DNA of 44,733 bases from contig VGDP01000025.1 of the NCBI GenBank assembly GCA_016869675.1, positions 1-44,733 on the forward strand, written 5' to 3'. The translations under genes were made by a program, and so were the position numbers. The notes below the pieces were generated by a model that saw only the letters and a list, made by a program, of their open reading frames with translations, did not search any database and had not been told where the DNA came from. Positions 1,640-22,137 of the stretch are shown here, one piece after another (the first letter of the stretch is position 1; each line of letters starts with the position of its first letter). Origin of the DNA: Alphaproteobacteria bacterium. Its GTDB lineage: Bacteria > Pseudomonadota > Alphaproteobacteria > SP197.

Positions 1640-2182
1640 ATGAGCGGCGCGCGCGGCACCGTCATTTGGCTGACCGGCCTTTCGGGCGCGGGCAAGAGCA
1701 CGATCGCCGAGGCGTTGGTGGGCCACTTGAAGCTCGCGCGGCCCGACACCGTCCTTATCGATGGCGATGCCGTGCGCGTCTTGTTCGGCGGCGATCTCGG
1801 CTATGACGAGGCCGCGCGCCATCAACAAATCCGCCGCATCCAGGGCTTGGCCCATTGGTTGGGGCGCCAGGAGCTATGCGTCGTGGTGGCCGCGCTCTAC
1901 GCCCACCCCGATCTTCTGGCGTGGAACCGCGCGCACTTGCCAGGCTATTTCGAGATCTATGTCGAAGCCCCGCTCGACCTCCTGCGCGCGCGCGACGGCA
2001 AGGGCCTCTACGCGGGTGCCGCCGCGGGTACGGTGCGCCACGTCGTTGGCATGGACATTCCCTGGCATGCGCCCAAGCACCCGGACATGGTGATCGACGC
2101 CCAACGCATGGAGCCGCCAGCCGACACGGCCGCGCGAATCATGGCGCGCCTCGCGGGGCGGCGGACCGAGACGGCCGCATGA
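1640..2182 (+). CDS. cysC: Adenylylsulfate (APS) kinase
   Basis: Phosphorylates APS to PAPS, the sulfate donor for sulfotransferases. The 180-residue product has a P-loop GLSGAGKST at residues 13-21, the IDGDAVR motif at 40-46, the DLGYDEAARH segment matching the CysC DLGF/DR region, and the KGLYAGAAAGTV segment near the C-terminus. At 180 residues it is slightly shorter than typical CysC (~200). The ATG at 1640 is chosen because it places the P-loop at the usual distance; the frame is open further upstream but overlaps the antiporter. Its stop overlaps the ATP sulfurylase start (ATGA), so the two are probably co-translated. The sulfotransferase at 5803 is the obvious user of its product. Confidence 0.9.
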   Translation: MSGARGTVIWLTGLSGAGKSTIAEALVGHLKLARPDTVLIDGDAVRVLFGGDLGYDEAARHQQIRRIQGLAHWLGRQELCVVVAALYAHPDLLAWNRAHLPGYFEIYVEAPLDLLRARDGKGLYAGAAAGTVRHVVGMDIPWHAPKHPDMVIDAQRMEPPADTAARIMARLAGRRTETAA

Positions 2183-3258: not shown

Positions 3259-4682
3259 GTGCCACCCGAATCGTCTGCACCATCGGACCCGTGACCCAGA
3301 CGCCGGAAGCTGTCCGCGCGCTCGCCCAAGCGGGCATGAGCGTCGCGCGCTTCAACGGCAGCCACGGCACGTTGGAGTGGCACAAGGAGGCGATCGCCGT
3401 CGTGCGCGCCGCGGCACCGGGCATCCCGGTCCTGCTCGACATCCCGGGCCGGAAGATCCGGACCGGCGCGCTCGCGGTCGAGCCGTTCTTCAAGGCGGGC
3501 GAAAACATCGTCCTGACGACCGAGCCCGGCCACGATGGTTCGCGCAAGGTGCCGATCACGAACGACCGGCTTCACCTGGACCTCTCCGCCGGCGACCAGA
3601 TCCTGGCCGATGACGGGACGCTGCGCTTCACCGTGCTTTCCGTCGTCGGGAACGACATCACCTGCAAGGCGGAAAACGCGGGCCAACTGCGAAGCCGCAA
3701 GGGCATCAACGTCCCGCACGTCCGCCTGCGCGGCGACCTGATCACGCCGCGCGACCACCAACTCGTGGAGTTCGCCCACAAGAACGGCGTGGACTTCATC
3801 GGCATCAGCTTCGTCGAGTCCGCCGTCCATGTCGAAGCCGTGCGCGAGCTGGCGGGCGATTGGCCGCGCATCGTCTCCAAGGTCGAGAGCCGGGGCGGGG
3901 TCGACAATCTCGAGGAGATCGCCGCCGCAACGGACGCGATCATGATCGATCGCGGCGATCTCTCGGTGGAAACCAGCCTCGCCGACGTGGCGATCATGCA
4001 GAAGCGGATTCTGGACGCCGGCGCCCGGCACGGAAAGCCCGTGATCGTGGCGACCGAGATGCTGCATACCATGATCGCCAATCCCTTCCCGACCAAGGCT
4101 GAGGTCAGCGACATCACCCAGGCGGTGCTCGACGGCTGCGCGGCGACGATGCTTTCGGGCGAGACGGCGGTCGGCGCGTATCCGGTGGACGCCGTGCGCT
4201 GCATGCGCCAAGTCGCCGCCGCCGCCGAATGCCACATGCAAGCGGAATTGGACGGCCGACGCCCGGCGTCCGACGCGGCCGAGCCCAATGCGCTCGCCGA
4301 GGCAACGGCGCTTTTGTGCCGTGAGCTTCCGATCACCAAGATCGTCGTTTTCACGCGCAGCGGTTTCGCGGCACGCCTCATCTCCGCGCGCCGGCCGCGC
4401 CAGCCCATCATCGCGGTAAGTGACGATGCGATGGCCGCGCGCAGCTTCAACCTTTTCGCCGGAACGACGGGCTGCCACACGCGCACCAAGTTCACCCGCA
4501 CCTCGACCGAGCACATCGTCGCAGGCTTGGAGGAAATGTGGCGCGCGGGCGTGCTCAACGACGCCGACGTGATTCTCGTCACGGGCCGCAGCTATTCCCG
4601 CGCCGGACACCGCATGAACCTGATCCAGGTTCACCACATCTCGGACCTCGCGGAGACGCTCAAGTGGCGGCGCGAAAGCTAG
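3255..4682 (+). CDS. Divergent pyruvate kinase family protein
   Basis: A full-length (475-residue) pyruvate kinase-fold protein. It opens with RIVCTIGP, and many catalytic positions are kept: R32, N34 and S36 in RFNGSHG, D62, K209 and E211 in SKVE, RGD at 233-235, T267 in ATEML, and MLSGETA near 300. Several conserved surroundings differ: the usual DTKGPEIR is DIPGRKIR at 62-69, NFSHG is NGSHG, and the Ala before RGD is Asp. The C-terminal domain is present. Placed between ATP sulfurylase and a sugar nucleotidyltransferase, it is unlikely to be the housekeeping glycolytic enzyme. It may tune PEP or ATP for the pathway (nonulosonate synthases consume PEP) or act on another phospho-enol substrate. 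Confidence 0.85.
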   Translation: MSATRIVCTIGPVTQTPEAVRALAQAGMSVARFNGSHGTLEWHKEAIAVVRAAAPGIPVLLDIPGRKIRTGALAVEPFFKAGENIVLTTEPGHDGSRKVPITNDRLHLDLSAGDQILADDGTLRFTVLSVVGNDITCKAENAGQLRSRKGINVPHVRLRGDLITPRDHQLVEFAHKNGVDFIGISFVESAVHVEAVRELAGDWPRIVSKVESRGGVDNLEEIAAATDAIMIDRGDLSVETSLADVAIMQKRILDAGARHGKPVIVATEMLHTMIANPFPTKAEVSDITQAVLDGCAATMLSGETAVGAYPVDAVRCMRQVAAAAECHMQAELDGRRPASDAAEPNALAEATALLCRELPITKIVVFTRSGFAARLISARRPRQPIIAVSDDAMAARSFNLFAGTTGCHTRTKFTRTSTEHIVAGLEEMWRAGVLNDADVILVTGRSYSRAGHRMNLIQVHHISDLAETLKWRRES

Positions 4683-7669: not shown

Positions 7670-9181
7670 ATGCACATCCGCAGGATCGCACTCCTCGCGC
7701 GCTCGGAGACGCGCTTCTTCATGTTGGCAGTCGCCCGCGAGCTCAAGGCGCGCTTGGGGTGTGAAATCTTCCTCTACTGCTCCGGCCCGCAGGAAGCGGC
7801 GTTCTATGGCGGCGAGAACGCGGACCGCGTCTTCGCTGATATCGTGGACGCCGACATCCTGCTGCTGAACGCCCGGCGAAAGGAGTTGCCGCTAAGCGAA
7901 GCGGAAATCGTCGCGCGCGCCGCCGCGTACGAGCGGCGCACCGGAACGACGATGAACATGATCGCCGTGTCCAATCGGCATCTCGGCCGCGGCTACGCGC
8001 TTGGCGGCTACCATCATCCGCGCTCGCGTGCCTCCGAAGAAGTCGATTACCTCCACATGCTCTTTGGCTACGGCGAGGTGCTCGCCTTCTGGGAGCACGA
8101 GTTGTCTTCAAAGCGGATCGACCTCGTGATCAACGGCAACAAGGAGACGGCGATGATCTGCCGCCTTCTCGGCATCCGTTTCCGCTCCATGGGCACCTCG
8201 CGCTACCGCAATTACCAGAACTGGGCGTGGAACGAGTATTTCGAGACTCCCGAGTTCCGGCAGGCCTTTGAAACTGGCGAGGGCAAAGGTGAGGGTGCGC
8301 TCGAGAAGCCCTATCTCGGCCACACCGCCCATCGCGAACTGTATCTCAAGCGGATGGGGACGTGGTCGCTCGCGCGCAACTTGGCGCTCACCGTCGCGCG
8401 GCACGCCTGGTGGCGCCTGCGCGGCTACCGGAAGGGCCGAAACTACTACTTGCTCGGCGAGCTCGCCTACTTCGTCCGCACCTGGGCCCAGTGGCGCGAT
8501 CTGCGCCGGCGCGCGCGCACGCGGCTTCGCGATCTCGACGGCAAACGGTTCGTCTACTATCCGCTGCACATCGAGCCCGAGACGGCGCTGCAAGGGATAT
8601 CGCCCGAGTATTTCTACCAACTCTCCCTCATCGCCGCGGTGTCGCGCGACCTTCCCGCCGGCGTGCTCTTGGCGGTCAAGGAGTTCTATTCCGCGACCGG
8701 GCGGAGGCCGCGCGATTTCTACGGCCAAATCGCCGAGTTCAAGAACGTCGTGCTGCTCGAGACCTTCGAGGTCGGCATGGAGTGCGCACAGAGGTCGGAT
8801 GCGGTGGTGACGATCTGCGGCACGGCGGGTCTGGAGGCCGCGGCAGCGGGCAAGCCCGTCATCGCCTTCGGGCGGCGCAATCTCTACAACTTCCTGCCCA
8901 ACGTGACCGTCGTGCGCGACGAAATCGAACTCAAGGACCATCTGCGTCGCGCGCTCGAAGCTCCGCCCAATGCCGACACGGTGCGCGCACATGCGGCGCG
9001 GCTTCTCCGCGCGATCGCCGCGCGCTCCTTCGACATGGGCACCTATCATTACAGCCGGCTCAGGGATTTCACGCCCGAGGCCGTAGCGGATGCCTGCGAC
9101 AAGCTGATCGCGGGCCTCGGTGCCGAGTCCCAGGGATTGAAGCTGGCCGATGTCTCCGCCTGGCGCGCCGCGGCCCAATGA
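7670..9181 (+). CDS. Capsule-type glycosyltransferase (KpsC/KpsS-related)
   Basis: A 503-residue cytoplasmic protein. Its C-terminal half resembles the Capsule_synth/Kdo-transferase family: YYPLHIEPE, then the KEFYSATGRRP region, then ICGTAGLEAAAAGKPVIAFG, in which the GTAGLEA loop and the Pro-Val near the end are the typical nucleotide-sugar-binding site. The N-terminal half has a Rossmann-like start (IALLARSETRFFMLAVA). A Shine-Dalgarno AGGA lies 5 bases before the ATG at 7670. The following sulfatase-fold gene overlaps by ATGA. CMP-linked sugars are the usual donors for this family, so a nonulosonate transferase role is plausible but not shown. Confidence 0.7.
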   Translation: MHIRRIALLARSETRFFMLAVARELKARLGCEIFLYCSGPQEAAFYGGENADRVFADIVDADILLLNARRKELPLSEAEIVARAAAYERRTGTTMNMIAVSNRHLGRGYALGGYHHPRSRASEEVDYLHMLFGYGEVLAFWEHELSSKRIDLVINGNKETAMICRLLGIRFRSMGTSRYRNYQNWAWNEYFETPEFRQAFETGEGKGEGALEKPYLGHTAHRELYLKRMGTWSLARNLALTVARHAWWRLRGYRKGRNYYLLGELAYFVRTWAQWRDLRRRARTRLRDLDGKRFVYYPLHIEPETALQGISPEYFYQLSLIAAVSRDLPAGVLLAVKEFYSATGRRPRDFYGQIAEFKNVVLLETFEVGMECAQRSDAVVTICGTAGLEAAAAGKPVIAFGRRNLYNFLPNVTVVRDEIELKDHLRRALEAPPNADTVRAHAARLLRAIAARSFDMGTYHYSRLRDFTPEAVADACDKLIAGLGAESQGLKLADVSAWRAAAQ

Positions 9182-10812
9182 CGCCCGCGGCGATTCGCCC
9201 CTCGAAGAAAGCGCTCGTCCTCCTCATCGACGCGCTGCGCTACGACGTGCTCGCCGATCCCGCGGCGCGCGCAACCCTGGTGCCGAACCTCGCGCGCCTG
9301 GCGGATCGCGGCTTCGTCGTGCCAGCCGTCGCCAACGCGCAGTCGACCCAATTCGTCATGCCCGCGCTGTTCTCGCTCACCTATCCCCTGGATCACGGCG
9401 GCTACAACAACGGCATCCGCGAACGGCCGAAGTCCTACGTGGAGTCGCTGCGCGACGCCGGTTTCGAGACGCACCTCATGGCGTCCGGCAACCAGCTCGG
9501 CATCACGATGGGTTACGACCGGGGCTTCGACAGCGTGCGGACCACCAGTGACTACCGCACCCTCTTGGAGCAGCGCATTGGCCGCACGCTCAAGTACGAG
9601 CTCGACCTCTGGCGCAAGGGTGAGCGCAGCGAGGCAGACGCGATCGCGCTCCTGCGCGCGGAATTTGCGCTGCTGTTGCGCACGCTCGTCGAATCCATCG
9701 AGGGCCACGACAAGTCAATCTGGCCGCCGGCACTACATCGGATCAACCGCAGGGTGGCCGACGGCTGCGTGCGCGAGCTCGCGCTCATCGAGGCCGAGCC
9801 GCGCGCTGTTCTCAACAAACTTTCGCGCATTGCGCCAGGCGTCTATTGGCGGTTCCTGGGCGCGCGGACGGTGAGCGCGGGCGCGCTGTTCCTTGCGCGC
9901 GCGCGAACCGCGCTCAGCTGGCGCATTCGCGAGTACGTTTCGGCGCACACGTGGTTTCCGTTCCTGACCCTTTCGCACCGGCAGACCATCACAGGCGACG
10001 TGATCCCGGCCATCAGCGAGTTCATCGCCGGGGCCAAGGATCGACCGTGGTACGTGCATCTGCACGTGATGGACGTGCACGACTGCCGGTCGGTCAACCG
10101 GCCGCTTCACGTTCTCGGCCGTCTGCGGTATCTGCCGCGCTGGCTGGGCGCGCGCCTGCGGGGCATGACGCGCCGGCGCTTTCTCTACGACTCGGCGGTC
10201 ATGTACGTCGACCGCGCGGTCGGCAAGCTGGCCGGCACGATCGCCGCGACCGGGCAGGAATCCGACACCGTCTTCGTGGTGATCGCTGACCACGGCAGCC
10301 AATACGCGGAGAGCCCGCGCCCCAAGCAGGACGTCGGGCTGCGTATGCATTACGAGCACATCGACGTGCCGCTTCTCGTCGCGGGAGCGGGCCGTGGGCC
10401 TTCCGGCCGCGGCCTCATCGACACGATGGGGATCAGCGCCACGGTCATGGACGCGCTCGGCGTACCCCTGCACCAAAGCCACAAGGGCATCGGCGCCTTC
10501 CGTCCCGGACGCGACGCGATCGTCAGCGAGAGTTGCGGGCACGGCAACGCCGATCTCGCGCGCCGGGACATCTATTTCACGGTCACATCCGAGACGCACC
10601 GCATGATGGCCATGCTTGTCGGCTCGGAGCTGCGGGTGCGCAAGCTCTTCGACCGTCGCGCCGACCCGCGTGAGCTGAACGATCTCGCCGCCGATCCGGC
10701 GCAGCGGCCGGTCATCGAGGGCATGATCGCCCATCTCCGGCGCGAGCGCGCCGAAATCTTCGCGCTGCGCGCCGCGGCGCGAACGGCCGTCCAGGCAACG
10801 GCCGCGTCGTGA
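9178..10812 (+). CDS. Sulfatase-fold (alkaline phosphatase superfamily) protein
   Basis: A 544-residue protein with the sulfatase/phosphoglycerol-transferase fold: the first metal-binding Asp in LLIDALRYD (D18), PNLARLADRG at 36-45, LHVMDVHD in the middle, and the late metal-binding DHGSQYAE. The canonical CxPxR nucleophile motif is missing: the segment reads STQFVMP (56-62), with Val two residues before the Pro. A Ser/Thr at 56-57 might be the nucleophile, as Thr is in LtaS-like enzymes. It could remove sulfate or transfer a phospho-group on the glycan. No clear signal peptide or membrane segments are visible. It overlaps its neighbours by ATGA and GTGA. Confidence 0.75.
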   Translation: MTPAAIRPSKKALVLLIDALRYDVLADPAARATLVPNLARLADRGFVVPAVANAQSTQFVMPALFSLTYPLDHGGYNNGIRERPKSYVESLRDAGFETHLMASGNQLGITMGYDRGFDSVRTTSDYRTLLEQRIGRTLKYELDLWRKGERSEADAIALLRAEFALLLRTLVESIEGHDKSIWPPALHRINRRVADGCVRELALIEAEPRAVLNKLSRIAPGVYWRFLGARTVSAGALFLARARTALSWRIREYVSAHTWFPFLTLSHRQTITGDVIPAISEFIAGAKDRPWYVHLHVMDVHDCRSVNRPLHVLGRLRYLPRWLGARLRGMTRRRFLYDSAVMYVDRAVGKLAGTIAATGQESDTVFVVIADHGSQYAESPRPKQDVGLRMHYEHIDVPLLVAGAGRGPSGRGLIDTMGISATVMDALGVPLHQSHKGIGAFRPGRDAIVSESCGHGNADLARRDIYFTVTSETHRMMAMLVGSELRVRKLFDRRADPRELNDLAADPAQRPVIEGMIAHLRRERAEIFALRAAARTAVQATAAS

Positions 10813-11855
10813 ACGCTCGCGCGCCCGCATTGACCGGCCTGCCCGCGACCGAGGGTCCGTTCGTCATCGCAGAGGCAGGCGTGAACCACAACGGCGACGC
10901 CGCGCTCGCCATGCGGATGGTCGATGCCGCACGGGATGCCGGCGCGCACGCGATCAAGTTCCAGACCTTCGTGCCCGAACTTCTCGCCTCCCCCGTTGCG
11001 CCGCGCGCGGCCTATCAGCGCGGCGACGGCGAGGACGGCGGACAGCTCGACATGGTGCGGCGGCTCGCGCTTGGCCGGCGCGACTTCGAAGCGCTGGCGG
11101 CGCACTGTGCGCGTCGTGGCATCGTCTTCCTCTCCACGCCCTTCGACGTCGAGAGCGCGCGCTTTCTTTGTGACCTTGGGGTGCCCGTGCTCAAGATTCC
11201 CTCGGGCGAGATCACGAACCCGGCCTTCCTTCGCGCCACAGCCGGTTTCGGCCGGCCGCTTATTCTCTCGACGGGCATGGCCGATTTGGGAGAGGTCGAG
11301 GCGGCGGTGGAAGCCGTCGAGAGCGCCGGTTGCGGCGACTACGCGCTTCTTCATTGCACCAGCAACTACCCGGCATCCGCGTGCGATGCCAATCTGCGCG
11401 CGATTCCGACGCTTGCGCGCACCTTTGGCTGTCCGGTCGGCTATTCCGATCACACCCTGGGAATCGACGTCGCCATCGCAGCCACGGCCCTGGGCGCCTC
11501 CATCATCGAGAAGCACTTCACCCTCGACCGGAATCTGTCTGGACCTGACCACCGCGCGTCTTTGGAGCCTGGCGAACTCAAGGCCATGGCCGAAGCCGTC
11601 GCGCGGACGGCCTCGGCCCTGGGCGACGGGGTCAAGCACCCGGCGCGGTCGGAAGCGCCCATCGCCGCCGTCGCGCGCCGAAGCCTGGCGGCCGCGCGCG
11701 CCATGCCGGCAGGCGCGCGTCTTGAGGACGGCGATCTCCTGGCATTGCGGCCGGGAACCGGCATCGCACCCTTCGAAGCCTCCCGTGTCGTCGGACGTCG
11801 CCTGCGAGTGGCCGTGGCGGCCCGGATGCTCATCGATTGGTCGATGCTGGAATGA
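10809..11855 (+). CDS. neuB: Nonulosonate (sialic/legionaminic acid) synthase, NeuB family
   Basis: Condenses PEP with a 6-carbon N-acetyl amino sugar (ManNAc or its 6-deoxy diacetamido relative) to a 9-carbon nonulosonate. The 348-residue protein has the TIM-barrel entry VIAEAGVNHNGD (~19-30), IKFQTF, FLSTPFD, LKIPSGE, ILSTGMADLGE, HCTSNYPA, GYSDHTLG and EKHFTLDRNL-GPDH, then a C-terminal SAF (antifreeze-like) domain with LRPGTGI. The GTG start overlaps the previous stop (GTGA). NeuD, NeuC and NeuA lie downstream, so this is the synthase of the first nonulosonate pathway. Whether its product is Neu5Ac or a legionaminic acid is undecided; the PtmE-like gene favours the latter. Confidence 0.9.
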   Translation: MNARAPALTGLPATEGPFVIAEAGVNHNGDAALAMRMVDAARDAGAHAIKFQTFVPELLASPVAPRAAYQRGDGEDGGQLDMVRRLALGRRDFEALAAHCARRGIVFLSTPFDVESARFLCDLGVPVLKIPSGEITNPAFLRATAGFGRPLILSTGMADLGEVEAAVEAVESAGCGDYALLHCTSNYPASACDANLRAIPTLARTFGCPVGYSDHTLGIDVAIAATALGASIIEKHFTLDRNLSGPDHRASLEPGELKAMAEAVARTASALGDGVKHPARSEAPIAAVARRSLAAARAMPAGARLEDGDLLALRPGTGIAPFEASRVVGRRLRVAVAARMLIDWSMLE

Positions 11856-12454
11856 AGGCCGTCGTGGATTCGGCGCGCCCGACGCTTCTGGTCGGCGCCG
11901 GTGGACATGCGCGGACGGTCGTCGACGCGTTGCGCGCCGCGGGCCGCCCGGTGCGCGCCTACGTGGATGCGCGCGCCGCCGACTGGCTCGACGGATCGCG
12001 CTTCGACACCGACCAGGCCGCGCTCGAATCGGACGACCTGTACGACGTGGCGATCGGCCTGGGAGGGATGACGCCTGCCGCCCTCGAGACGCGCCACGCG
12101 CTGCTTTCGCGCTACCGGGCGGCGGGGCACACCGCATCGCTCGTCGTCGATCCGCGCGCGACGACGAGCGCGTCGGCACGCGCGGGCGCGGGCGCCCAGA
12201 TTCTGGTCGGTTCGATCGTCAACGCGGGCGCGTGGATCGACGAGGCAGCGATCGTCAATTCAGGCGCCATCGTCGAGCACGACGCACGGATCGGCTCCGG
12301 AAGCCACGTGGCGCCGGGCGCCATCGTTCTGGGCGGTGCGCGAGTCGGAACGTTCTGCATGATCGGTGCGGGTGCGGTCATCCTGCCCGGCGCCAAGGTT
12401 CGGGATCGGACACTCGTGCCGGCCCGTGCCGTTTATTGCGGCAAAGCGTGCTGA
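11852..12454 (+). CDS. neuD: Sialic-acid-type O-/N-acetyltransferase, NeuD/PglD family
   Basis: A 200-residue protein with a small N-terminal nucleotide-binding fold (LLVGAGGHARTV, ~12-23) and a C-terminal left-handed beta-helix built from hexapeptide repeats (for example SIVNAGAWIDEAAIVNSGA, ending in the coil before ARAVYCGKAC). Such enzymes acetylate an amino sugar on the way to, or after, nonulosonate formation. The ATG at 11852 overlaps the neuB stop (ATGA); an in-frame GTG 15 bases upstream is less likely. The NeuB-NeuD-NeuC order supports the call. Substrate is inferred from context only. Confidence 0.8.
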   Translation: MKAVVDSARPTLLVGAGGHARTVVDALRAAGRPVRAYVDARAADWLDGSRFDTDQAALESDDLYDVAIGLGGMTPAALETRHALLSRYRAAGHTASLVVDPRATTSASARAGAGAQILVGSIVNAGAWIDEAAIVNSGAIVEHDARIGSGSHVAPGAIVLGGARVGTFCMIGAGAVILPGAKVRDRTLVPARAVYCGKAC

Positions 12455-12460
12455 GGCGCC

Positions 12461-13669
12461 ATGGCGGTTCGCATCCTGAGCGTGACCTCCAGCCGGGCCG
12501 ATGTGGGCATCCTCCTACCGGTGTGGGAGGCCCTGGCCGCGCGGCACGACATCGAGCTTCACGTGCTCGCGACCGGCATGCATTGCGCCCCGGACGCGCC
12601 CGATCCGCCGATCCCCGCGGCGGCCGCGCGCCACATCGGCGGGGCGGACTTGGGCGGGGGCGCGGGCAGGGACGCGGCGAGCGCGATGGTCGCGTGCGCC
12701 CAAGCCGTTTCGGACCTCCTGGCGCGCATGCGCTTCGATTGCATGCTCGTGATCGGCGACCGGCTCGACATGCTGCCGGCCGCTTTCGCCGCCACACCTT
12801 ATAATGTGCCGATCGCGCACCTCCATGGCGGCGAACTGACCCTGGGCGCCATCGACGACCGCGCGCGTCACGCCATGAGCAAATTGTCCCATCTTCACTT
12901 CGCCAGCGGGCGTGAGGCGGCGGTGCGGCTTGCGTGCATGGGCGAGGAGCCATGGCGCATCCTCGTGACCGGCGCGCCCGGATTGGACACGCTGGCGCGG
13001 GTTCCGGCGATGTTGGCCGCCGATTTCGCGGCGGCCCTGTCGCTGCCCTTCGCGGATGGATTCGTGCTGGCGACCGTGCATCCGGAGACGAATGCGCCCA
13101 ACTCGGCGGCGCCGATGCGCGCGGTCCTCGATGCGCTGGACGCAAGCGACGCACCGATCCTGTTCACAGCTCCCAATTCCGATCCGGGCGGCCTCGCCCT
13201 TCGCGCGATGATCGAGGCGTTTCTGGTCGACCACCCAAAGGCGGCCTTCCGCGAAACGCTGGGGCCCGTGCTCTATCCGAATGCGCTCCGCCACGCGGTG
13301 GTCATGCTGGGAAATTCATCGAGCGGCTTGATCGAGGCTGGGTTCTTCGGCCTGCCGGTGATCGACGTGGGCGGACGCCAGACGGGCCGAGGCTCGGGCG
13401 GCAACGTCCGGCACGTGTCCGCTGATGCAGCAGCCGTTCGCGCGGCACTGGAGGCCGTCCTCCGCGCGCGTGCGCGCCACGCGCGGGAAACACCCTATGG
13501 CGACGGCCACGCCGCCCCGCGCATCGCTTGCGCGCTCGCGCGGCTTCCGGAAAGAGAAAGACTGCTTCGAAAATCGTTCCACTACGGCACAACGCCGTCT
13601 TTCGAGGTGCCGTGGGAGAGCGGAGGGCCGGCCGCCGGCGAAAGCGATCGAGGAGCGCGCGCGCCATGA
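12461..13669 (+). CDS. neuC: UDP-sugar 2-epimerase (hydrolysing), NeuC/LegG family
   Basis: Hydrolyses and epimerises an NDP-N-acetyl sugar (UDP-GlcNAc to ManNAc, or its diacetamido analogue) to supply NeuB. The 402-residue protein shows TSSRADVGILLPV (~9-21), GDRLDMLPAA, IAHLHGGELTLGAIDD, VHPETN, and GNSSSGLIEAGFFGLPVIDVG, all standard for the GT-B-fold hydrolysing 2-epimerases. The final ~40 residues, after LPERERLLRK, form an extra tail without an obvious match. A weak GAGG lies just before the ATG at 12461. It overlaps the next gene by ATGA. Confidence 0.9.
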   Translation: MAVRILSVTSSRADVGILLPVWEALAARHDIELHVLATGMHCAPDAPDPPIPAAAARHIGGADLGGGAGRDAASAMVACAQAVSDLLARMRFDCMLVIGDRLDMLPAAFAATPYNVPIAHLHGGELTLGAIDDRARHAMSKLSHLHFASGREAAVRLACMGEEPWRILVTGAPGLDTLARVPAMLAADFAAALSLPFADGFVLATVHPETNAPNSAAPMRAVLDALDASDAPILFTAPNSDPGGLALRAMIEAFLVDHPKAAFRETLGPVLYPNALRHAVVMLGNSSSGLIEAGFFGLPVIDVGGRQTGRGSGGNVRHVSADAAAVRAALEAVLRARARHARETPYGDGHAAPRIACALARLPERERLLRKSFHYGTTPSFEVPWESGGPAAGESDRGARAP

Positions 13670-14682
13670 GCACAGCCGAGATTTACGACCCTGTTCGCGA
13701 TGACGAGGCGACCGTCGTCTGCGGTTGCGCGGCGCTTACGCTCGGCGCGCTGCGCCGCCGGATCGCCGCCCAGCCCGAACTCGGCTTCGAGAACCTTCTT
13801 GCCTCGCTCGGCGCCGGAACGACGTGCACGGCGTGCTTGCTGGATCTGGAATACCACTTCGTGGAAGCGCGAAGCCGGGGCGGGCACCAAACGGAATCGT
13901 CCGCGACCGCGATGACGCGTCCCGCCGCCCGGCGCGGCTGGCGGGAGGCGCTGTATGCCTTTCTCGACGCCGCCTCGCCGCCGGTCGCCTACCGGTTCAA
14001 CAATCCGATGCCCGTCCTTTACGGCCCCGGCATCGAGCAATGGCTTTGGATCGTCAATCGCTCCCTGCTCTTCGAGGGACGCATCTGCGCGCCGACGATG
14101 CGCATCGAGTTGATCCTCCGCGACGCGGAAGGCCGGACGATCGAAAAGCGGCGCCACGACGTGGCGCCCGAGACGACCCTGCGCGTGGAATTGTCCGGCG
14201 CCTTCCAACGCGCGGCGGCCACGCCCGGACAGCGGGCGCTCGGCGTCGGATCGGTCGAGATCAAGCGGCGGGGCCTCAGCCCCGGCATTCGCGGCACGAC
14301 CCGCCCACAGGTCGAAGTCCTCACGCCGCGCGCGGCGTGCGCCGTCCACAGCCAAGCCATGGCGGGGCCGGGGCGCTATTGGTTCACCTGCCTCGACCGG
14401 CCGGAGGACGAGCGGATGTTCTTCAGCATCCTCAACGGCAGCGATCGCCGGACGGTCGTGGAGATGACGTATCTCGCCGGCACGCCGAACGATGCGGGCG
14501 AGGTTCACCGGATCGAACTCGCGCCCAGGGGTGCTGCACTCCACGAAATGCGGCTCGCGCGGCGCGACCCGCAATGTGCCGGCGCGCCGGTGTCTGTGAG
14601 CTGGCAGGCGGCCGTGCCCCACAAGGTTCACGCCATCTGCGCCTCCGTCGGTTTGGACAGGTTCTCCATCGACCACCTGTAG
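13666..14682 (+). CDS. BFD-like [2Fe-2S] domain fused to an unknown domain
   Basis: A 338-residue protein I cannot assign to a full-length family. Residues ~16-62 match the BFD-type [2Fe-2S] domain: C19 and C21 (VCGC), then C54 and C57 (CTAC). The CxC-x32-CxxC spacing equals that of E. coli Bfd. After a ~30-residue linker, residues ~95-338 look like one or two beta-rich domains (FNNPMPVLYGPGIEQWLWIVN, RYWFTCLDRP, FFSILNGSDR). No membrane segment or signal peptide. The ATG at 13666 overlaps neuC; the frame extends upstream but only inside neuC. A redox or sensing role is possible; no catalytic function can be read. Confidence 0.7.
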   Translation: MSTAEIYDPVRDDEATVVCGCAALTLGALRRRIAAQPELGFENLLASLGAGTTCTACLLDLEYHFVEARSRGGHQTESSATAMTRPAARRGWREALYAFLDAASPPVAYRFNNPMPVLYGPGIEQWLWIVNRSLLFEGRICAPTMRIELILRDAEGRTIEKRRHDVAPETTLRVELSGAFQRAAATPGQRALGVGSVEIKRRGLSPGIRGTTRPQVEVLTPRAACAVHSQAMAGPGRYWFTCLDRPEDERMFFSILNGSDRRTVVEMTYLAGTPNDAGEVHRIELAPRGAALHEMRLARRDPQCAGAPVSVSWQAAVPHKVHAICASVGLDRFSIDHL

Positions 14683-14691
14683 GAACCCGCC

Positions 14692-15519
14692 ATGTCCTCA
14701 GCCTTTCTCTTTCCCTCCATCACATCCTTGCCGCCCGGCTACGACTGCGCGGTGTCGATCCCGCCTGCGCGCCTGGCCCAGAAGGCGATCCGCGACGGAC
14801 GGGCGGTCTGCCAACAGCGCGTCTTCCACGCCGGGCGCCTGGTGCACGAGGCCCAGCACCACATCGAGATTCGCGGCGGAACGGCCGTGGGATTGCCCGT
14901 CTTCCGCTGGCCTGACCACGACGCGGAATGGAACGGAAACGCGGGTTTCCTCGAATTGAGCTTCCACGCCGAGGACGGCCGCGCCATGTTCCGCGACACG
15001 CGAGTTGTCGGTTTCTACGCGATCTACAGCAAGCCCGGAAAGAAATCGTTCTTCTCGGACAACGCGTTTCGCTATGGCGCGCCGCCCACCATCAACCAAA
15101 TCGCGGCGTTCGGCCGCTACGTGGACGCCTATCCCGTGATGCATCTCGATCGCGCGCGCGACCTTGGCGAGACCTTGACGCTCATCAACCCATACGCGAA
15201 AGCCGTGCTCGCCAGCGTGGCGACGCAGGACGGGCGCCAAATCAGCCGCCGACGCGTCGCGCCGATGAGCGTCCTCAATCTGAGCCTCGCCGAACTGCTG
15301 AAGCCCGGCGAGGAGCGATGGCTGGGCCATCTGCAACTGACGGCGACGAACCGCCTGGTGACGTTCCACATCAAGCATTCCATGGCCGATCCGCGCGTCA
15401 TCTCTGATCACGAGCATCTGGACGCCTTCCGGGGCGACAAGACGCATTATCCACTCACCCAGTTGATCCGGCTTCGCGTCGGCGAGTTCCTCCGCAACCG
15501 AGGCCTGCTTAGAGCCTAG
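14692..15519 (+). CDS. Uncharacterised protein next to the BFD-fusion gene
   Basis: A 275-residue protein of unknown family, with an AGGA ribosome site 7 bases before the ATG at 14692. It is beta-rich (HHIEIRGGTAVGLPVFRW, VVGFYAIYSKPGKKSFFSDN, TLTLINPYAKAVLASV). Its later part (LINPYAKAVLA...VLNLSLAELL) looks loosely like the C-terminal part of the preceding protein (ILNGSDRRTVVEMTY...GAALHEMRLA), so the two may be distant paralogues; this is only an eye-level similarity. No catalytic motif, signal peptide or membrane segment is evident. It sits between neuC and the oxidoreductase in the nonulosonate operon, suggesting a pathway-specific role. Confidence 0.6.
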   Translation: MSSAFLFPSITSLPPGYDCAVSIPPARLAQKAIRDGRAVCQQRVFHAGRLVHEAQHHIEIRGGTAVGLPVFRWPDHDAEWNGNAGFLELSFHAEDGRAMFRDTRVVGFYAIYSKPGKKSFFSDNAFRYGAPPTINQIAAFGRYVDAYPVMHLDRARDLGETLTLINPYAKAVLASVATQDGRQISRRRVAPMSVLNLSLAELLKPGEERWLGHLQLTATNRLVTFHIKHSMADPRVISDHEHLDAFRGDKTHYPLTQLIRLRVGEFLRNRGLLRA

Positions 15520-15521
15520 CC

Positions 15522-16493
15522 GTGCGCTGTCTTCTCGTCGGAAGCGGCCATATCGGCCGACGCCATGCCCGCGCCTTGCGCACCCTCGCGCCGGGCACGG
15601 AGGTGGTGGCGCTGCGTTCAGGCCGCGGCGGCGCGCTCCCCGACGGGGTCGCCGACCGCGAAGTCCACGCGTTCGCCGACGCACTCGCCTTGCGCCCCGA
15701 CTGCGCGATCGTCGCCGATCCGGCGCCATGCCATCCCGCTTCGGCGGCGCCCTTGCTCGCCAAGGGTATTCCCACGCTCGTCGAAAAACCCCTCGCGGCG
15801 GACGCCGCTGGCGCCGACGCCCTGCGCGCCGCCGCCGCAGCGCCCGACCGCGTGCTCATCGGCTACCTTCTGCGCCACGACGAGGCGCTCACGCGTTTCC
15901 GCGCGGCCCTCGCGAGCGGAGAGGTTGGCGGCCTGGTAAGCCTGCACTTGGAAGCGGGAGGAGCCCTGGCCGGCTGGCGGCCTGGCATGGCGCCCGAGCG
16001 TCAGATCAGCGCGCGGCCAGAGACGGGCGGAGGCGTCCTTTTCGAACTGAGCCACGAGATCGACGCGGCGCGCTGGTTGTTGGGCGAGATCGTCGAAAGC
16101 CACGTGATCGCAGACCGGCGCGGCACGCCGCGCTTGGCGGTCGAGGATGCGGCGATACTTCTTCTTCGCTGCCAAGGCGGCCCGGTTTCCGTCCAAATCG
16201 ACATGGCGCGCGCGCGATCCACCCGACGCTACCGCGCCGTCGGTACGCGCGGAACCTTGGTCTGGACGGCGGAGGACGGCACCCTCCGCCTGGAGGAGCC
16301 GGGAGGCATTCGTACCCTTCACGACCGAACCCCCGAACCCGACGAACGCCTACGCCGGCAGATGGCGCACTTCCTGGCTGTCGTGCGCGGCGAGGCGGCA
16401 TCTCTTTGCACGCTCGACGACGGCATCGCCGCGTTGAAGGCGGTGCTCGATTTGCGCCGCAAGGCGGGTCTGGACGCGGGAGTGGCGGCGTGA
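15522..16493 (+). CDS. Gfo/Idh/MocA family sugar oxidoreductase
   Basis: A 323-residue NAD(P)-dependent dehydrogenase-like protein. The N-terminal Rossmann motif is LLVGSGHIGRRHA (4-16), followed by the conserved VEKPLA segment (~90) and the C-terminal alpha/beta domain with GGGVLFELSHEIDAARWLLG, which contains the catalytic-region His-Glu-x-Asp. The start is a GTG two bases after the previous stop. Oxidoreductases of this family appear beside NeuA/NeuB homologues in legionaminic-type (ptm) clusters, but their step is often unassigned. It overlaps neuA by GTGA. Confidence 0.8.
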   Translation: MRCLLVGSGHIGRRHARALRTLAPGTEVVALRSGRGGALPDGVADREVHAFADALALRPDCAIVADPAPCHPASAAPLLAKGIPTLVEKPLAADAAGADALRAAAAAPDRVLIGYLLRHDEALTRFRAALASGEVGGLVSLHLEAGGALAGWRPGMAPERQISARPETGGGVLFELSHEIDAARWLLGEIVESHVIADRRGTPRLAVEDAAILLLRCQGGPVSVQIDMARARSTRRYRAVGTRGTLVWTAEDGTLRLEEPGGIRTLHDRTPEPDERLRRQMAHFLAVVRGEAASLCTLDDGIAALKAVLDLRRKAGLDAGVAA

Positions 16494-17194
16494 GCGGCGA
16501 GACGATCGCCTTCATCTTCGCGCGCGGCGGTTCCTCAATGGCGGGGAAGAATCTCCGCCCACTTCTTGGCCGCTCCTTGCTCGCGCGCGCGGTGAGCGCC
16601 GCAAAGGCTGTCGGCCGTATCGACCGCGTGGTCGTCTCGACCGACGATGCGGCGATCGCCCAGGCGGCGCAGGAGGCGGGCGCCGAAGTGCCGTTCCGCC
16701 GGCCGGCCGAGCTGGCGACGGACCATGCGCCCGAATGGCTCGCGTGGCGCCACGCCATCCAATGGGCGCGCTCGGGCGGCGCGAACTTCACGCGCTTCGT
16801 GTCCGTTCCGACGACCGCGCCGCTGCGCGAGCCCGGCGACATCGCGCGCTGCCTCGATGCGTTTGAGACCGGACTATGGGACGTCGTTCTGACCGTCCGA
16901 CCGGCGGAACGCAGTCCGTACTTCAACATGGTACACCTCGACAGCGCAGGCGCGGCGCATCTCGCGACCAAGCCCGATCGGCCGATCGCCGGGCGCCAAG
17001 GCGCGCCCGTTCTGTACGACGTCACCACGGTTGCCTATGTCGCCGCGCCGGAATTCGTGATGCGCGCCGACGCCATCTTCGCAGGCCGGGTCGGCGCGGT
17101 GATCGTGCCCAAGGAGCGCGCCATCGACATCGACGACGAATGGGATCTGGCAGCAGCCGAGGCATATTTGCGCCGGATGGAGACAACGCGATGA
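16490..17194 (+). CDS. neuA: Acylneuraminate (nonulosonate) cytidylyltransferase, NeuA/LegF family
   Basis: Activates the nonulosonate as a CMP-sugar. The 234-residue protein has FARGGS at 10-15, KN at 20-21, VVSTDDAAIAQAAQEAGAEVPFRRP, SVPTTAPLREPGDI and the late IDIDDEWDL motif, all typical. In the usual ARGGSKGIPGKN motif the Lys after GGS is Ser here (S16), an unusual change at a phosphate-contacting position, although K20 is kept. The GTG start is chosen by the GTGA overlap with the oxidoreductase; the open frame extends well upstream inside that gene. It is followed by an SDR overlapping by ATGA, a neighbour pair like ptmB-ptmA in Campylobacter. Confidence 0.88.
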   Translation: MSGETIAFIFARGGSSMAGKNLRPLLGRSLLARAVSAAKAVGRIDRVVVSTDDAAIAQAAQEAGAEVPFRRPAELATDHAPEWLAWRHAIQWARSGGANFTRFVSVPTTAPLREPGDIARCLDAFETGLWDVVLTVRPAERSPYFNMVHLDSAGAAHLATKPDRPIAGRQGAPVLYDVTTVAYVAAPEFVMRADAIFAGRVGAVIVPKERAIDIDDEWDLAAAEAYLRRMETTR

Positions 17195-18003
17195 GCGGCG
17201 GACGATCGATCGCCCAACTCATGGATTTGCGCGGCCGCACCGCCGCCATCCTCGGCGGCGCGGGGCATATCGGGCTCGCGGCCGGCGAGGCGCTCGCCGA
17301 GCTGGGCGCCGCCGTCGCCGTTATCGACCTGGCGGTGGCGCGGCCCGAAGACGCCGCGCGACGCATCGCATCTACGCATTCGGCCCGCACGGCGGGAATC
17401 GCGTGTGATCTGATGGAGGCGGACGCACCCGCGCGACTCGGGCGCGAACTCGAACGTTTCGAGGGCAGGCTCGACATTCTTGTCAACTGCGCGGCGCTGG
17501 TGGGAACGAGCGATCTCGAAGGCTGGGCGGTGCCGTTCGAACGCCAGGGCGCGGATGCGTGGCGGAAGGCCATGGAGGTCAATCTGACCGCGCCGTTCTT
17601 CGTCATCCAGAACCTCGCGCCGCGCCTGGCCGCCTCCGGGAACGGCGCGGTCGTGAACGTCGCGTCCATCCACGGCCTGTCAGGGCCCGATTGGCGCCTA
17701 TACGAGGGCACGGCCTTGGCCAACCCGGCGGCCTACGCCGCGAGCAAGGCCGGCCTCATCCAGGCGACGCGGTGGCTGGCCACGACGCTGGCCCCGCGCG
17801 TGCGCGTCAACGCGCTGAGCCCCGGCGGAATCCTGCGGGGACAACCCCGCACGTTCGTCGAGCGCTACGAGCATCGCACGCCGCTCGGGCGCATGGGCCG
17901 CGAGGACGACCTCAAAGGCGCCATCGCCTTCCTGGCAAGCGATCTCTCGGCCTACGTCACCGGCGAGAACATCGTCGTCGACGGCGGATGGACCGCATGG
18001 TGA
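17191..18003 (+). CDS. Short-chain dehydrogenase/reductase (PtmA-like)
   Basis: A 270-residue classical SDR. Cofactor motif GGAGHIG is at 22-28, an NCAAL segment stands in for NNAG at ~99-103, and the catalytic Ser159, Tyr182 and Lys186 (YAASK) are all present. The C-terminal SPGGI and VTGENIVVDGGWTAW are standard. Its position directly after neuA parallels ptmA of legionaminic-acid clusters, but the reaction is unknown. It overlaps the next gene by 7 bases. Confidence 0.85.
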   Translation: MSGGRSIAQLMDLRGRTAAILGGAGHIGLAAGEALAELGAAVAVIDLAVARPEDAARRIASTHSARTAGIACDLMEADAPARLGRELERFEGRLDILVNCAALVGTSDLEGWAVPFERQGADAWRKAMEVNLTAPFFVIQNLAPRLAASGNGAVVNVASIHGLSGPDWRLYEGTALANPAAYAASKAGLIQATRWLATTLAPRVRVNALSPGGILRGQPRTFVERYEHRTPLGRMGREDDLKGAIAFLASDLSAYVTGENIVVDGGWTAW

Positions 18004-19889
18004 ACGCGCCACCTGTTGCCGACGGTGCGACAACGCCCGGACGCTCGATGCCTGCGACAATGCGCAAGGGCGTCGCCATGCTGGGACCCAGCTGGCCCAA
18101 GCTGTCCGCCTTGCTCGCTCTGTTCATGGCGACGACGGTGGTCGAAGGCTTCGGCATTGGCATGCTTCTGCCGGTCGCGGAACTTCTCCAAGTCGGTGGC
18201 GAGTTGTCGGACGCCGTGCGAAACCAGCCCCACTGGCGTTATCTCGCCGCGGGCGCGGACTTCCTGGGCGTGCCGCTGTCGCTGCCCACCCTGCTCTTGG
18301 CGAGCCTTGCGCTCTTCACCATCCGCAACGCCCTCGTCTACGCCCGCTCGGTCCTCGTCGCGGTCGCGGCCCAGCACTTCATCCTGGACAACCGCGCCCG
18401 CGGCTTCTGGCTTTTCCTGCAAGCGCGCAACGACTACCAGGACACGATGTCGATCGGCCGCGTGGTCAACGACCTGAATCTCCAGATTTCGACGTCGTCG
18501 AGCGCCATCTTCTCGCTGGTCTCGATCGCGCACATTGCCTTCATGGCGGCATACTATTTCGCGTTCCTGTTTCTCCTTTCCTGGAAGATGACACTCGCCA
18601 TTCTTTTGGTACTGGGCCTCGCCTATTTCGTTGTCCTGCCGATCGCCAGGGCTTCCCACAAAGTGGGCGAGACGCTCGTGGGCGCCAACCAGGCCGCCTC
18701 TGCCTTCCTGGTCGAGCGCCTGGGGGCCACGCGCCTCATCCGCCTGGCTCGCTCCGAGACGGCGGAGGTGGAGGAGATGCGCCGGCGCGCCAAGCGCCAA
18801 GCGAGCGGCGAGATCGCGCTTATCCGCAACAGCGCGCGCACGGCCCTCATCATCGAGAGCTTCGTCGCGGCGTGCGTGATCGCACTCTTGCATTTCGGCA
18901 CCACCGTCCTGTCGCTAGAACTGGCGACGATCGGGATGACCTTGGCGATCCTCATCCGCCAGCTTCCCGTCGTGCGGGAGTTCATCATCGTGCGCCAGGC
19001 GATCGTCTCCAATTCGCCGTCCGTTGCGCGCGTCGTCGACCTGTTCGAGGAAATGGAGCGGACCGCCGAACCGACAACGGGCGAGCGCGACGACGCGCGC
19101 CTGCGCGATTCGATCATCTTCGACAACGTGACGTTCCGGTATTCCGCAGGTGGCGACGCGGCCTTGAACGGCGTGTCCCTCGTGATCCCGGCCGGCAAGA
19201 TGACCGCCCTGGTGGGCCCCAGCGGCGGCGGGAAATCGACGCTCATCGACATGCTTCCAAGGCTGCGCGAACCGGACAGCGGGGAGATTCGGCTGGACGG
19301 GACGCCGATCCGGGAATTCACGCACCGATCCTTGCGCGGGATCATGTCCTATGCGCCGCAAGCCCCGCAGATCTTCAACTCAACGGTGGCCGAGCACATC
19401 CGCTACGGCCGTCCGGAGGCGAGCGAGGATGAGATTCGCACGGCGGCGGAACGGGCGGGCGCCCGCGCCTTCATTGAGGCGTGGCCCGAAGGCTTCGAGA
19501 CCATGCTCGGTGAGAAGGGCGTGCGGTTGTCCGGCGGACAGAAGCAGCGCATCGATCTGGCGCGCGCGCTCGTCGGCCACGCGGACCTTCTGATTCTCGA
19601 CGAGCCGACCAGCAACATCGACAGCGAGTCCGAATTCCATTTCCAGAAGGCGATTCAGTCTCTGCGTGGCGAAACCGGGAGGACGATCGTCGTGGTCGGA
19701 CACCGCCTCTCGACGGTTCGCGACGCGGATCAGATCGTCGTGATGGACGGCGGGCGCGTCATGGATTGCGGCACGCACGCCGAGCTTCTCGAGCGCAGCG
19801 GCTGGTACGCCGCCGCGTTCCGGATGCAGGTCGAGGGCCTCACGGCGGAATCCCCATTCACCCAAACCGAAGAAAAATTGGCGTCATGA
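17997..19889 (+). CDS. ABC transporter, fused permease-ATPase (MsbA/PglK-like exporter)
   Basis: A 630-residue half-transporter. About five or six membrane segments occupy residues ~25-340 (for example LLALFMATTVVEGFGIGMLLP and AAYYFAFLFLL). The nucleotide-binding domain follows with Walker A GPSGGGKST, Q-loop APQAPQIF, signature LSGGQKQR, Walker B LLILDEPTSNID and the switch His in VGHRLST. This type flips or exports lipid-linked glycans. ATG 17997 is preferred over the adjacent GTG 18000; the frame is open further upstream inside the SDR gene. It lies between the two nonulosonate modules and is the only transporter of this kind in the window. A stop overlap (ATGA) couples it to pseB. Confidence 0.88.
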   Translation: MVNAPPVADGATTPGRSMPATMRKGVAMLGPSWPKLSALLALFMATTVVEGFGIGMLLPVAELLQVGGELSDAVRNQPHWRYLAAGADFLGVPLSLPTLLLASLALFTIRNALVYARSVLVAVAAQHFILDNRARGFWLFLQARNDYQDTMSIGRVVNDLNLQISTSSSAIFSLVSIAHIAFMAAYYFAFLFLLSWKMTLAILLVLGLAYFVVLPIARASHKVGETLVGANQAASAFLVERLGATRLIRLARSETAEVEEMRRRAKRQASGEIALIRNSARTALIIESFVAACVIALLHFGTTVLSLELATIGMTLAILIRQLPVVREFIIVRQAIVSNSPSVARVVDLFEEMERTAEPTTGERDDARLRDSIIFDNVTFRYSAGGDAALNGVSLVIPAGKMTALVGPSGGGKSTLIDMLPRLREPDSGEIRLDGTPIREFTHRSLRGIMSYAPQAPQIFNSTVAEHIRYGRPEASEDEIRTAAERAGARAFIEAWPEGFETMLGEKGVRLSGGQKQRIDLARALVGHADLLILDEPTSNIDSESEFHFQKAIQSLRGETGRTIVVVGHRLSTVRDADQIVVMDGGRVMDCGTHAELLERSGWYAAAFRMQVEGLTAESPFTQTEEKLAS

Positions 19890-20920
19890 CAAACGCGAAG
19901 AGGCGCGACTTCCGCGCGCCAGAGCCTCAACTGGACGGCAAGTCGATCCTGGTGACGGGCGGCACGGGCTCCTTCGGCCGACGCTTCGTCCGCACGGTTC
20001 TGGACCGCTACAAACCCGAACGGCTGATCGTCTTCTCGCGCGACGAGTTGAAGCAGTTCGAGATGCAGCACGAGCCGGGATTCGAGGGCCATCCGGCGCT
20101 ACGCTTCTTCCTCGGCGACGTGCGCGACGACGGCCGATTGGAAATGGCCTTGCGGGACGTCGATATCGTCGTCCATGCGGCCGCGCTCAAGCAAATCACC
20201 GCGGCCGAATACAATCCTTTCGAGTGCATCCGGACAAACGTGCACGGTGCCGAGAACCTGGTGCGCGCGGCCCTGCGTGCCGGCGTCCGGCAGGTTGTGG
20301 CACTGTCGACCGACAAGGCCGCGAATCCGATCAACCTCTACGGAGCGAGCAAGTTGGCGTCGGATAAGATTTTCATCGCGGGCAACAATCTGGCGGGTGT
20401 TGCGCCGACGCGCTTCGGTGTCGTCCGCTACGGGAACGTGATCGGTTCGCGCGGCTCGGTGGTTCCATTCTTCCGAAAACTCCTTGCCGACGGCGTGACC
20501 GCACTGCCGGTCACGGACGAACGCATGACCCGGTTCTGGATCACCCTTCAGCAAGGCGTCGACCTCGTGCTGTCCACGTTGGTCCTCATGCGCGGTGGGG
20601 AAATCTTCGTGCCGAAAATACCCAGCATGCGCGTGATCGACCTTGCCGCGCTCATGTCGCCGGGGACGGCCCCGCGCTTCATCGGCATCCGGCCCGGCGA
20701 GAAGGTGCACGAGGCGCTCATCGCCGAGGAAGAGGCGCGCAACACCTACGATCTTGGCGATCGCTACGTGATCGCACCGTCGTTCCGGTTCTGGTCCGCA
20801 GATGGGCTCGACCCGCGGGCGCGGCCGATCGGCGACGAGTCCTTCAGCTACATGAGCAACAACAATTCCGAGTGGTTGAGCAAAGGGGAGCTGGAGGCGC
20901 TCCTCGCGGAGACCCCGTGA
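19886..20920 (+). CDS. pseB: UDP-GlcNAc 4,6-dehydratase (5-inverting), PseB family
   Basis: First step of pseudaminic-acid synthesis: UDP-GlcNAc to UDP-2-acetamido-2,6-dideoxy-beta-L-arabino-hexos-4-ulose. The 344-residue extended SDR has VTGGTGSFG at 23-31, AALKQI at ~99-104, STDKAANP (141-148) and the Y152-x3-K156 motif in YGASK, then RYGNVIGSRGSVVPFF, MTRFWITL and GIRPGEKVHE. These are PseB/CapD-type hallmarks, and the aminotransferase PseC follows at once. A ~15-residue N-terminal extension precedes the Rossmann fold. Confidence 0.92.
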   Translation: MTNAKRRDFRAPEPQLDGKSILVTGGTGSFGRRFVRTVLDRYKPERLIVFSRDELKQFEMQHEPGFEGHPALRFFLGDVRDDGRLEMALRDVDIVVHAAALKQITAAEYNPFECIRTNVHGAENLVRAALRAGVRQVVALSTDKAANPINLYGASKLASDKIFIAGNNLAGVAPTRFGVVRYGNVIGSRGSVVPFFRKLLADGVTALPVTDERMTRFWITLQQGVDLVLSTLVLMRGGEIFVPKIPSMRVIDLAALMSPGTAPRFIGIRPGEKVHEALIAEEEARNTYDLGDRYVIAPSFRFWSADGLDPRARPIGDESFSYMSNNNSEWLSKGELEALLAETP

Positions 20921-22137
20921 TGACGGACCGCGTGCTCGGATACGGCCAGCAGCATATCGGGGACGATGACGTGGCCGCGGTGGTTGCCGCGCTGCGCGGC
21001 GAGTTTCTGACCACCGGTCCCGCCGTCCAAGCCTTCGAGACCGCGTTTGCCCGCGCGGTCGGCGCGCGCCACGCCGTCGCCTGCATGAACGGAACCGCCG
21101 CTTTGCACCTTGCGGCGCTTGCCCTCGATCTGAAGCCGGGTGACTGCGCGATCGTGCCCGCCGTCACCTTCCTCGCCACCGCGAACGCCGTGCGCTACGT
21201 GGGCGCGGAACCCGTGTTCGCCGACGTGGACGCGAACACGGCACTCATGTCGCCCGAGCATCTGGAAGCCGCCATCGTCCGCGCGCCATCGCCTCCCAAA
21301 GCGGTCTTCCCCGTGCACATCGGCGGCCCAAGCTGTGACATGGCCGGGATTGCCGCGGTGGCCGCACGCCACGGCATGACGGTCGTCGAGGACGCGTGCC
21401 ACGCCCTCGGCACAACGGGAGATGGCGCGGGAATGCCTTTCATCGCGGGCGACTGCCGGTGGAGCCGAATGACGGTCTTCTCCGCGCACCCCGTGAAGAT
21501 GATGACCATGGGTGAGGGCGGGGTCGTGACGACGAACGAGGCGCACACCGCGAAGCGCCTGGCGCGCCTGCGCAACCACGGCCTCGTGCGCGACGCGACC
21601 GACTTCACGGTGCGCGAACAGGCCTTTGCGGCCGACGAAAGCGCGAATCCTTGGTACTACGAGATGGACGAGGTTGGATTCAATTATCGGGCGAGCGATC
21701 TGCAGTGTGCCCTCGGATCGAGCCAGCTCGCGAAGCTCGACCGCTTCGTGGAACGCCGGCGCGTTCTTATCCGCCTCTACGAGGAAGCACTGCGCGATGC
21801 GCCCGTTCGCGGCATCGAGGCGGAGACTCGGAATTTCGGTCAGCGCGTGGGCTGGCATCTGTTCCGCATCCGCGTGGACTTCCGGGCGCTGGGCTGCGAC
21901 AGGGCGGCCTTCATGCGCCGCCTCTTGCGCCGCGGGGTGGGCAGCCAAGTGCACTACATGCCGCTTTACCGGCATCCCTACTACGCGCGGCGCTGGAACC
22001 GACAAGGCTTGCCGGGGGCTGAGGCCTACTACGCGGGAACGCTCAGCCTGCCGCTTCACTGCAACATGACGGACGGGGATGTGGGCCGCGTCGTCGCGGC
22101 CATCGCCGAAGCGGCCGAGCCGGGGCCCCACGCGTGA
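20920..22137 (+). CDS. pseC: UDP-4-amino-4,6-dideoxy-N-acetyl-altrosamine transaminase, PseC family
   Basis: PLP-dependent DegT-family aminotransferase that aminates the PseB product at C4. The 405-residue protein has the PseC start VLGYGQQHIGDDDVAAV, the AVACMNGTAALHLA segment at ~52-65, VEDACHALG, and the catalytic Lys193 in SAHPVKMMTMGEGG, the PseC-specific form of this motif. MDEVGFNYRASDLQCALG and the late SLPLHCNMTDGDV are also typical. ATG 20920 is chosen; GTG 20917 is an alternative. The cytidylyltransferase gene overlaps its stop by GTGA. Confidence 0.92.
   Translation: MTDRVLGYGQQHIGDDDVAAVVAALRGEFLTTGPAVQAFETAFARAVGARHAVACMNGTAALHLAALALDLKPGDCAIVPAVTFLATANAVRYVGAEPVFADVDANTALMSPEHLEAAIVRAPSPPKAVFPVHIGGPSCDMAGIAAVAARHGMTVVEDACHALGTTGDGAGMPFIAGDCRWSRMTVFSAHPVKMMTMGEGGVVTTNEAHTAKRLARLRNHGLVRDATDFTVREQAFAADESANPWYYEMDEVGFNYRASDLQCALGSSQLAKLDRFVERRRVLIRLYEEALRDAPVRGIEAETRNFGQRVGWHLFRIRVDFRALGCDRAAFMRRLLRRGVGSQVHYMPLYRHPYYARRWNRQGLPGAEAYYAGTLSLPLHCNMTDGDVGRVVAAIAEAAEPGPHA

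Follow-up and report, generated by a model that had tools for sequence, protein, structure and literature searches.

A nonulosonic-acid operon lies within the 44,733-nucleotide stretch of contig VGDP01000025.1 analysed here (the window), and it raises the question of what a protein with a BFD-type [2Fe-2S] cysteine motif does among sugar-nucleotide enzymes; to our knowledge, iron-sulfur proteins are part of no known nonulosonic-acid pathway. All genes of the operon are encoded on the forward strand, and they include neuB for a nonulosonic acid synthase (10809-11855, TIGR03569, 405.8 bits), a gene for a neuD-like sugar acyltransferase (11837-12454, TIGR03570, E 1.6e-38, under the cut-off) and neuC for a UDP-GlcNAc 2-epimerase of the hydrolysing type (12461-13669, TIGR03568, 296.1 bits), with the NCBIfam cut-offs of 399.65 bits for NeuB and 235.9 bits for NeuC both passed. 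The gene in question (13666-14682, 338 amino acids), referred to as the fusion, has 13 homologues in other genomes, and its ATG overlaps the neuC stop codon as ATGA, which indicates the translational coupling to neuC that a sequence-only reading of this DNA had proposed. The same reading had placed the gene between neuC and neuA. It does follow neuC, but a second gene (14692-15519, the partner) and, 3' of this pair, a gene for a Gfo/Idh/MocA oxidoreductase (15522-16493) intervene before that of the CMP-nonulosonate cytidylyltransferase (neuA/PseF-like, about 16490-17194, PF02348; TIGR03584, 100.3 bits, under the cut-off). The partner had been overlooked, and the unit to be explained consists of two genes rather than one.

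The N-terminal part of the fusion (residues ~12-72, 13699-13881, + strand) is a real and conserved BFD-type domain. Residues C19, C21, C54 and C57, with codons at 13720, 13726, 13825 and 13834, constitute the BFD-type motif CxC-x32-CxxC, whose flanking pattern xCxC ... GxxCTAC also follows BFD. Conservation of these cysteines among homologues had been set beforehand as the test of the assignment, and all four were found, along with T55, to be invariant in 14 of 14 family members, the most divergent of which shares 18% identity with the window copy. A chance origin of the motif was considered and ruled out, given this invariance and the occurrence of CxC-x31/32-CxxC in 23 of 200,000 protein shuffles. 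Pfam Fer2_BFD (PF04324) matches residues 17-63 of the window copy at E 7.4e-5 with 23.5 bits, falling under the gathering score of 26, and it matches 13/14 members of the family, with a best E of 2.1e-10; it was the only Pfam match, while NCBIfam returned just a weak match to NifU, far below threshold. A profile built from ten members finds solved Bfd structures in the PDB weakly (E 0.0075), in an alignment that needs a one-residue gap, since the spacer between the cysteine pairs is x31 in Bfd and x32 in the window copy. The cysteine pattern described by the sequence-only reading is thus present, but its spacing is not exactly that of Bfd, as had been claimed, and differs by one residue; across the family the spacer ranges from 29 to 33. 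In a model of the fusion predicted from eight sequences (mean pLDDT 77), helices occupy residues 26-35, 41-48 and 55-71, at the positions expected for BFD; the rows of the structural comparison span residues 106-330 only. Bfd resembles this domain in its cysteines and in the short helical form predicted by the model, and differs in that it is a stand-alone protein serving bacterioferritin, whereas the domain described here is fused to two beta-sandwiches and encoded in glycan clusters. This domain would most likely hold a [2Fe-2S] cluster.

BFD-type domains are electron carriers in Bfd and also occur in NirB/NasA-type reductases, and the fusion profile finds BFD-type stretches in open frames of about 900 residues elsewhere. 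The domain could, by analogy with such carriers, exchange electrons with an oxidoreductase modifying the nonulosonic acid or the glycan, with the ASRT-like domains described below docking the substrate, and SDR and Gfo/Idh enzymes are indeed encoded near the pair in some loci. These enzymes, however, depend on NAD(P) and do not accompany the pair consistently, and the ORF lists that were read contain no flavoprotein, heme protein, radical-SAM protein or other one-electron partner. Because no dedicated enzyme is a constant neighbour, electron transfer to one becomes less likely, and we consider this role unlikely. Quite unlikely, in our judgement, is that the four cysteines hold a structural zinc without any redox chemistry. 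The N-acetyl sugar amidotransferase, a family found in the neighbourhood of the pair, binds zinc through a tetracysteine motif (PMC10607449), and the window copy lies just under the Fer2_BFD cut-off; against this, the order, spacing and flanks of the cysteines are BFD-like, and the family as a whole is tied to Fer2_BFD and to solved Bfd by the matches given above.

The remaining ~240 residues of the fusion had been left unassigned. They are indeed an uncommon C-terminal part to be joined to a BFD-type domain, but half of this part can now be assigned, as the model places, after the helical N-terminal domain and a linker, two beta-sandwiches in succession. The first (residues ~105-224, 13978-14337, + strand) gives jelly-roll-like matches to SIDT1/2 at Z 7-7.6; these and viral jelly-roll matches to the first sandwiches of both the fusion and the partner (Z 5-7.6) were judged to be generic and set aside. 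The second (residues ~225-338, 14338-14679, + strand) is ASRT/TM1070-like: residues 231-338 superpose on Thermotoga TM1070 (1nc7) with a VIA Z of 11.2 and an rmsd of 2.8 over 101 residues, and the sandwich matches Anabaena ASRT (2ii7) with Z 9.2, while the next structural rows concern the first sandwich and are unrelated, at Z 7.6 and lower. The C-terminal domain of the fusion is accordingly modelled as the eight-stranded beta-sandwich of the ASRT/TM1070 fold. A profile of this sandwich scored 26.8 against two ASRT sequences, whereas 60 column-shuffled controls averaged 10.8 and reached 16.7 at most. Pfam ASRT (PF07100) found zero matches among members of the fusion or partner alignments at E up to 1. 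Within the second sandwich H228, Q230 and N257 are invariant, and N257, like the invariant N166 of the partner, would correspond to the nearly invariant Asn that ends strand 2 in the ASRT/ASRAH superfamily, in the register given by the profile alignment to ASRT. The narrow ASRT-like family carries an SHExxCxxN motif, whose ligand-contacting His and Cys are replaced in both the fusion and the partner; at positions where that family has ligand-contacting residues, -7 before the Asn is mostly Arg, and -3 is small in the fusion. With the ligand His and Cys of TM1070 lost, the identity of the residues gives no ground for extending sugar binding to the pair. Structural and operon considerations had led to the proposal that this fold binds sugars and serves as a stand-alone intracellular sensor acting via protein contact (PMC2739507). 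The proteins described there resemble the window pair in the predicted C-terminal fold and in the conserved Asn after the second strand, and they differ in context, being linked to sugar catabolism rather than to surface-glycan clusters (PMC2739507). The window pair further differs in comprising two genes for two-domain proteins, in the BFD fusion, and in the missing Pfam match and His/Cys motif.

The partner encodes 275 amino acids on the same strand, starts 9 bases past the stop codon of the fusion and has no family match in Pfam or NCBIfam. Its model, built from ten sequences with a mean pLDDT of 86, again contains two beta-sandwiches, and the C-terminal one (residues 128-245, 15073-15426, + strand) superposes on 1nc7 with Z 10.9, whereas the row after it reaches 5.9. 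The ASRT sequence profile is inseparable from controls on this domain, as 9 of 60 column shuffles score as high; hence the assignment of the ASRT/TM1070 fold to the C-terminal half of the partner, shared with the fusion, rests on the predicted model and on the invariant N166, which lies inside the consensus ESLxLINP. A full-length comparison of the sequence profiles of fusion and partner gave nothing convincing, and comparisons by domain were weak.

The two genes are strictly associated, since the partner comes immediately after the fusion, in the same orientation, in 14/14 loci found, the copy in one locus (L057) being broken by unread bases. Their distance matrices agree with an r of 0.93, a value reached by none of 20,000 permutations, and such agreement is expected for genes that move together; it may come from adjacent genes being inherited or transferred jointly and need not mean that the proteins touch. 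A membrane-type hydrophobic stretch is absent from both proteins (the maximal mean hydrophobicity over 19 residues is 1.23 for the fusion and 0.93 for the partner), which are therefore taken to be cytosolic. Relatives of the fusion were collected from one public alphaproteobacterial contig and from whole genomes of the same class, the genome coverage being a sample. In this sample the fusion occurs in 7 of 385 genomes and the partner in 8 of 372, one of these eight being spurious; 3 of 5 species are positive in one family and 4 of 14 in another, and among the sampled members of its own family the window genome is the sole positive. The pair is thus rare and patchy in Alphaproteobacteria, a kind of spread that is usual for surface-glycan clusters. 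Distant, phylum-wide matches of the fusion profile cover the BFD part alone, mostly within frames of ~900 residues, and were assigned to other BFD-type proteins. A weak partner match in genome G136 (45 residues, E 4.7e-4) was dropped, being antisense to a larger frame, and a plasmid collection gave no match to three members.

Many of the neighbour assignments outside the window are translations read by eye. Examination of the neighbourhoods, as the sequence-only reading had advised, revealed surface-glycan clusters, often with NeuB-type synthases, and the pairing itself; of the three kinds of neighbour counted next, none is universal. A NeuB gene shares the contig of the pair, at a distance of up to about 15 kb, in 7/13 genomes; 10/13 genomes encode an N-acetyl sugar amidotransferase no further than about 10 kb away, and 6/14 loci have Sat or CysD genes for sulfate activation within about 12 kb. 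These are raw counts, from which we infer no enrichment. A match to the N-acetyl sugar amidotransferase is missing from the window genome, and genome G197, which is 90% complete, has no NeuB match. In genome G095 (L006, 6479-12150) the pair is flanked, by eye, by phosphonopyruvate-decarboxylase-like and PEP-mutase-nucleotidyltransferase-like genes, which suggests a phosphonate-bearing glycan. With this phosphonate-type locus and the NeuB-less G197, the pair is not specific to Neu operons, and there is no output enzyme that all its loci share. The pathway enzymes NeuB/C/D/A, PseB/C/F/I and WbuX share an operon or cluster with the pair; in contrast, neither fusion nor partner matches any of these families, and Pfam and NCBIfam assign neither to a known enzyme family of the Neu/Leg/Pse pathways. 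As a separate observation, a methyltransferase-like protein with a Y(L/T)EWY segment adjoins the pair in three loci (L011, 8099-9034; L013, 8876-9652; L006, 7647-8693), and the L011 copy has no NCBIfam match.

The BFD-type domain with its invariant cysteines, the predicted ASRT-like folds, the strict pairing, the lack of a membrane-type segment and the glycan context are the grounds on which we tentatively, and with somewhat less than even confidence, read the pair as a two-subunit cytosolic accessory complex for the synthesis of surface glycans, mainly of nonulosonic acid, that is sugar-sensing and tuned by redox or iron. Fusion and partner would interact as the two subunits, and the ASRT/TM1070-like sandwich of each would most likely bind a sugar, a sugar nucleotide or the nascent glycan. 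The [2Fe-2S] cluster most likely held by the BFD-type domain of one subunit would probably make the complex responsive to redox or iron state, and the complex may tune or gate the pathway enzymes or a linked exporter via protein-protein contact, while probably not catalysing a NeuB/C/A step itself. The narrower form of this reading, in which the two ASRT-like subunits, one with its BFD-type domain, are an undescribed redox- or iron-responsive heteromer that senses sugar and gates nonulosonic-acid surface-glycan synthesis in Alphaproteobacteria, is possible and held with greater doubt. The sequence-only reading had offered "a redox or sensor component of an undescribed step"; the sensor is the better half of that suggestion because the C-terminal domain is predicted to have a fold with a proposed sugar-sensing role (PMC2739507), and a biosynthetic step of its own finds no support, since the ORF lists read contain neither a flavin, a heme nor a radical-SAM redox partner.

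A possible role in glycan export deserves separate consideration. The C-terminal carbohydrate-binding domain of Wzt recognises a glycan for ABC-dependent export, and, being a cytosolic beta-sandwich linked to such export, it resembles the sandwiches of the pair by description, with the difference that Wzt has no Fe-S domain. By this analogy the sandwiches may recognise the finished glycan for a linked ABC exporter as a form of quality control, and an ABC exporter is encoded in the cluster of the window (18003-19889) and, in loci read by eye, in those of L005, L012, L013 and L048, and in L057 it adjoins the pair. No exporter is found near the pair in the stretches read of L001, L006 and L014, however, and the BFD domain would be left unexplained, which makes this role distinctly unlikely. 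Control of the cluster at the level of transcription according to redox state is improbable, for although Anabaena ASRT, with the fold common to both proteins, has been shown to bind DNA, to form loops in it and to change the expression of a reporter, its affinity for DNA is weak, about 10 uM, its contacts R109, Q110 and N113 at the C-terminus are not obviously kept in the pair (PMC8660804), and no known DNA-binding domain was found in either fusion or partner.

The kinds of domain in this gene pair are known, while no description was found of the combination of a BFD domain with an ASRT-like pair, and no papers on nonulosonic acid with 2Fe-2S, or on BFD-like proteins with polysaccharide and 2Fe-2S, were found among the open-licence literature. 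As far as we know, a sugar ligand of the ASRT/TM1070 fold has been proposed and not demonstrated. The strict pair shares its operon with sugar-nucleotide enzymes that have been identified, which provides a short list of candidate ligands, and with it a direct route to testing whether this fold binds sugars and whether redox or iron state controls surface glycans. Physiologically, the pair hints at a link between the redox or iron state of the cell and the production of surface sugars.

Additional features of the window cluster concern its glycan content. PseB and PseC are above their cut-offs, a second NeuB-type synthase is also encoded, and the arrangement of the synthases (10809-11855 and 26018-27490) with the PseB/PseC region (19880-22137) suggests two nonulosonic-acid routes in one cluster. 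A sulfatase/phosphodiesterase-like gene (9178-10812) and a Capsule_synth, KpsS-like gene (7670-9181) accompany the pair in three loci, those of the window, L001 and L005. An ATP sulfurylase gene directly followed by a pyruvate-kinase-type gene is present at 1855-4682 in the window, and likewise at 3424-~5960 in L001 and 1255-3929 in L011, so that these neighbours recur in three separate surface-glycan clusters.
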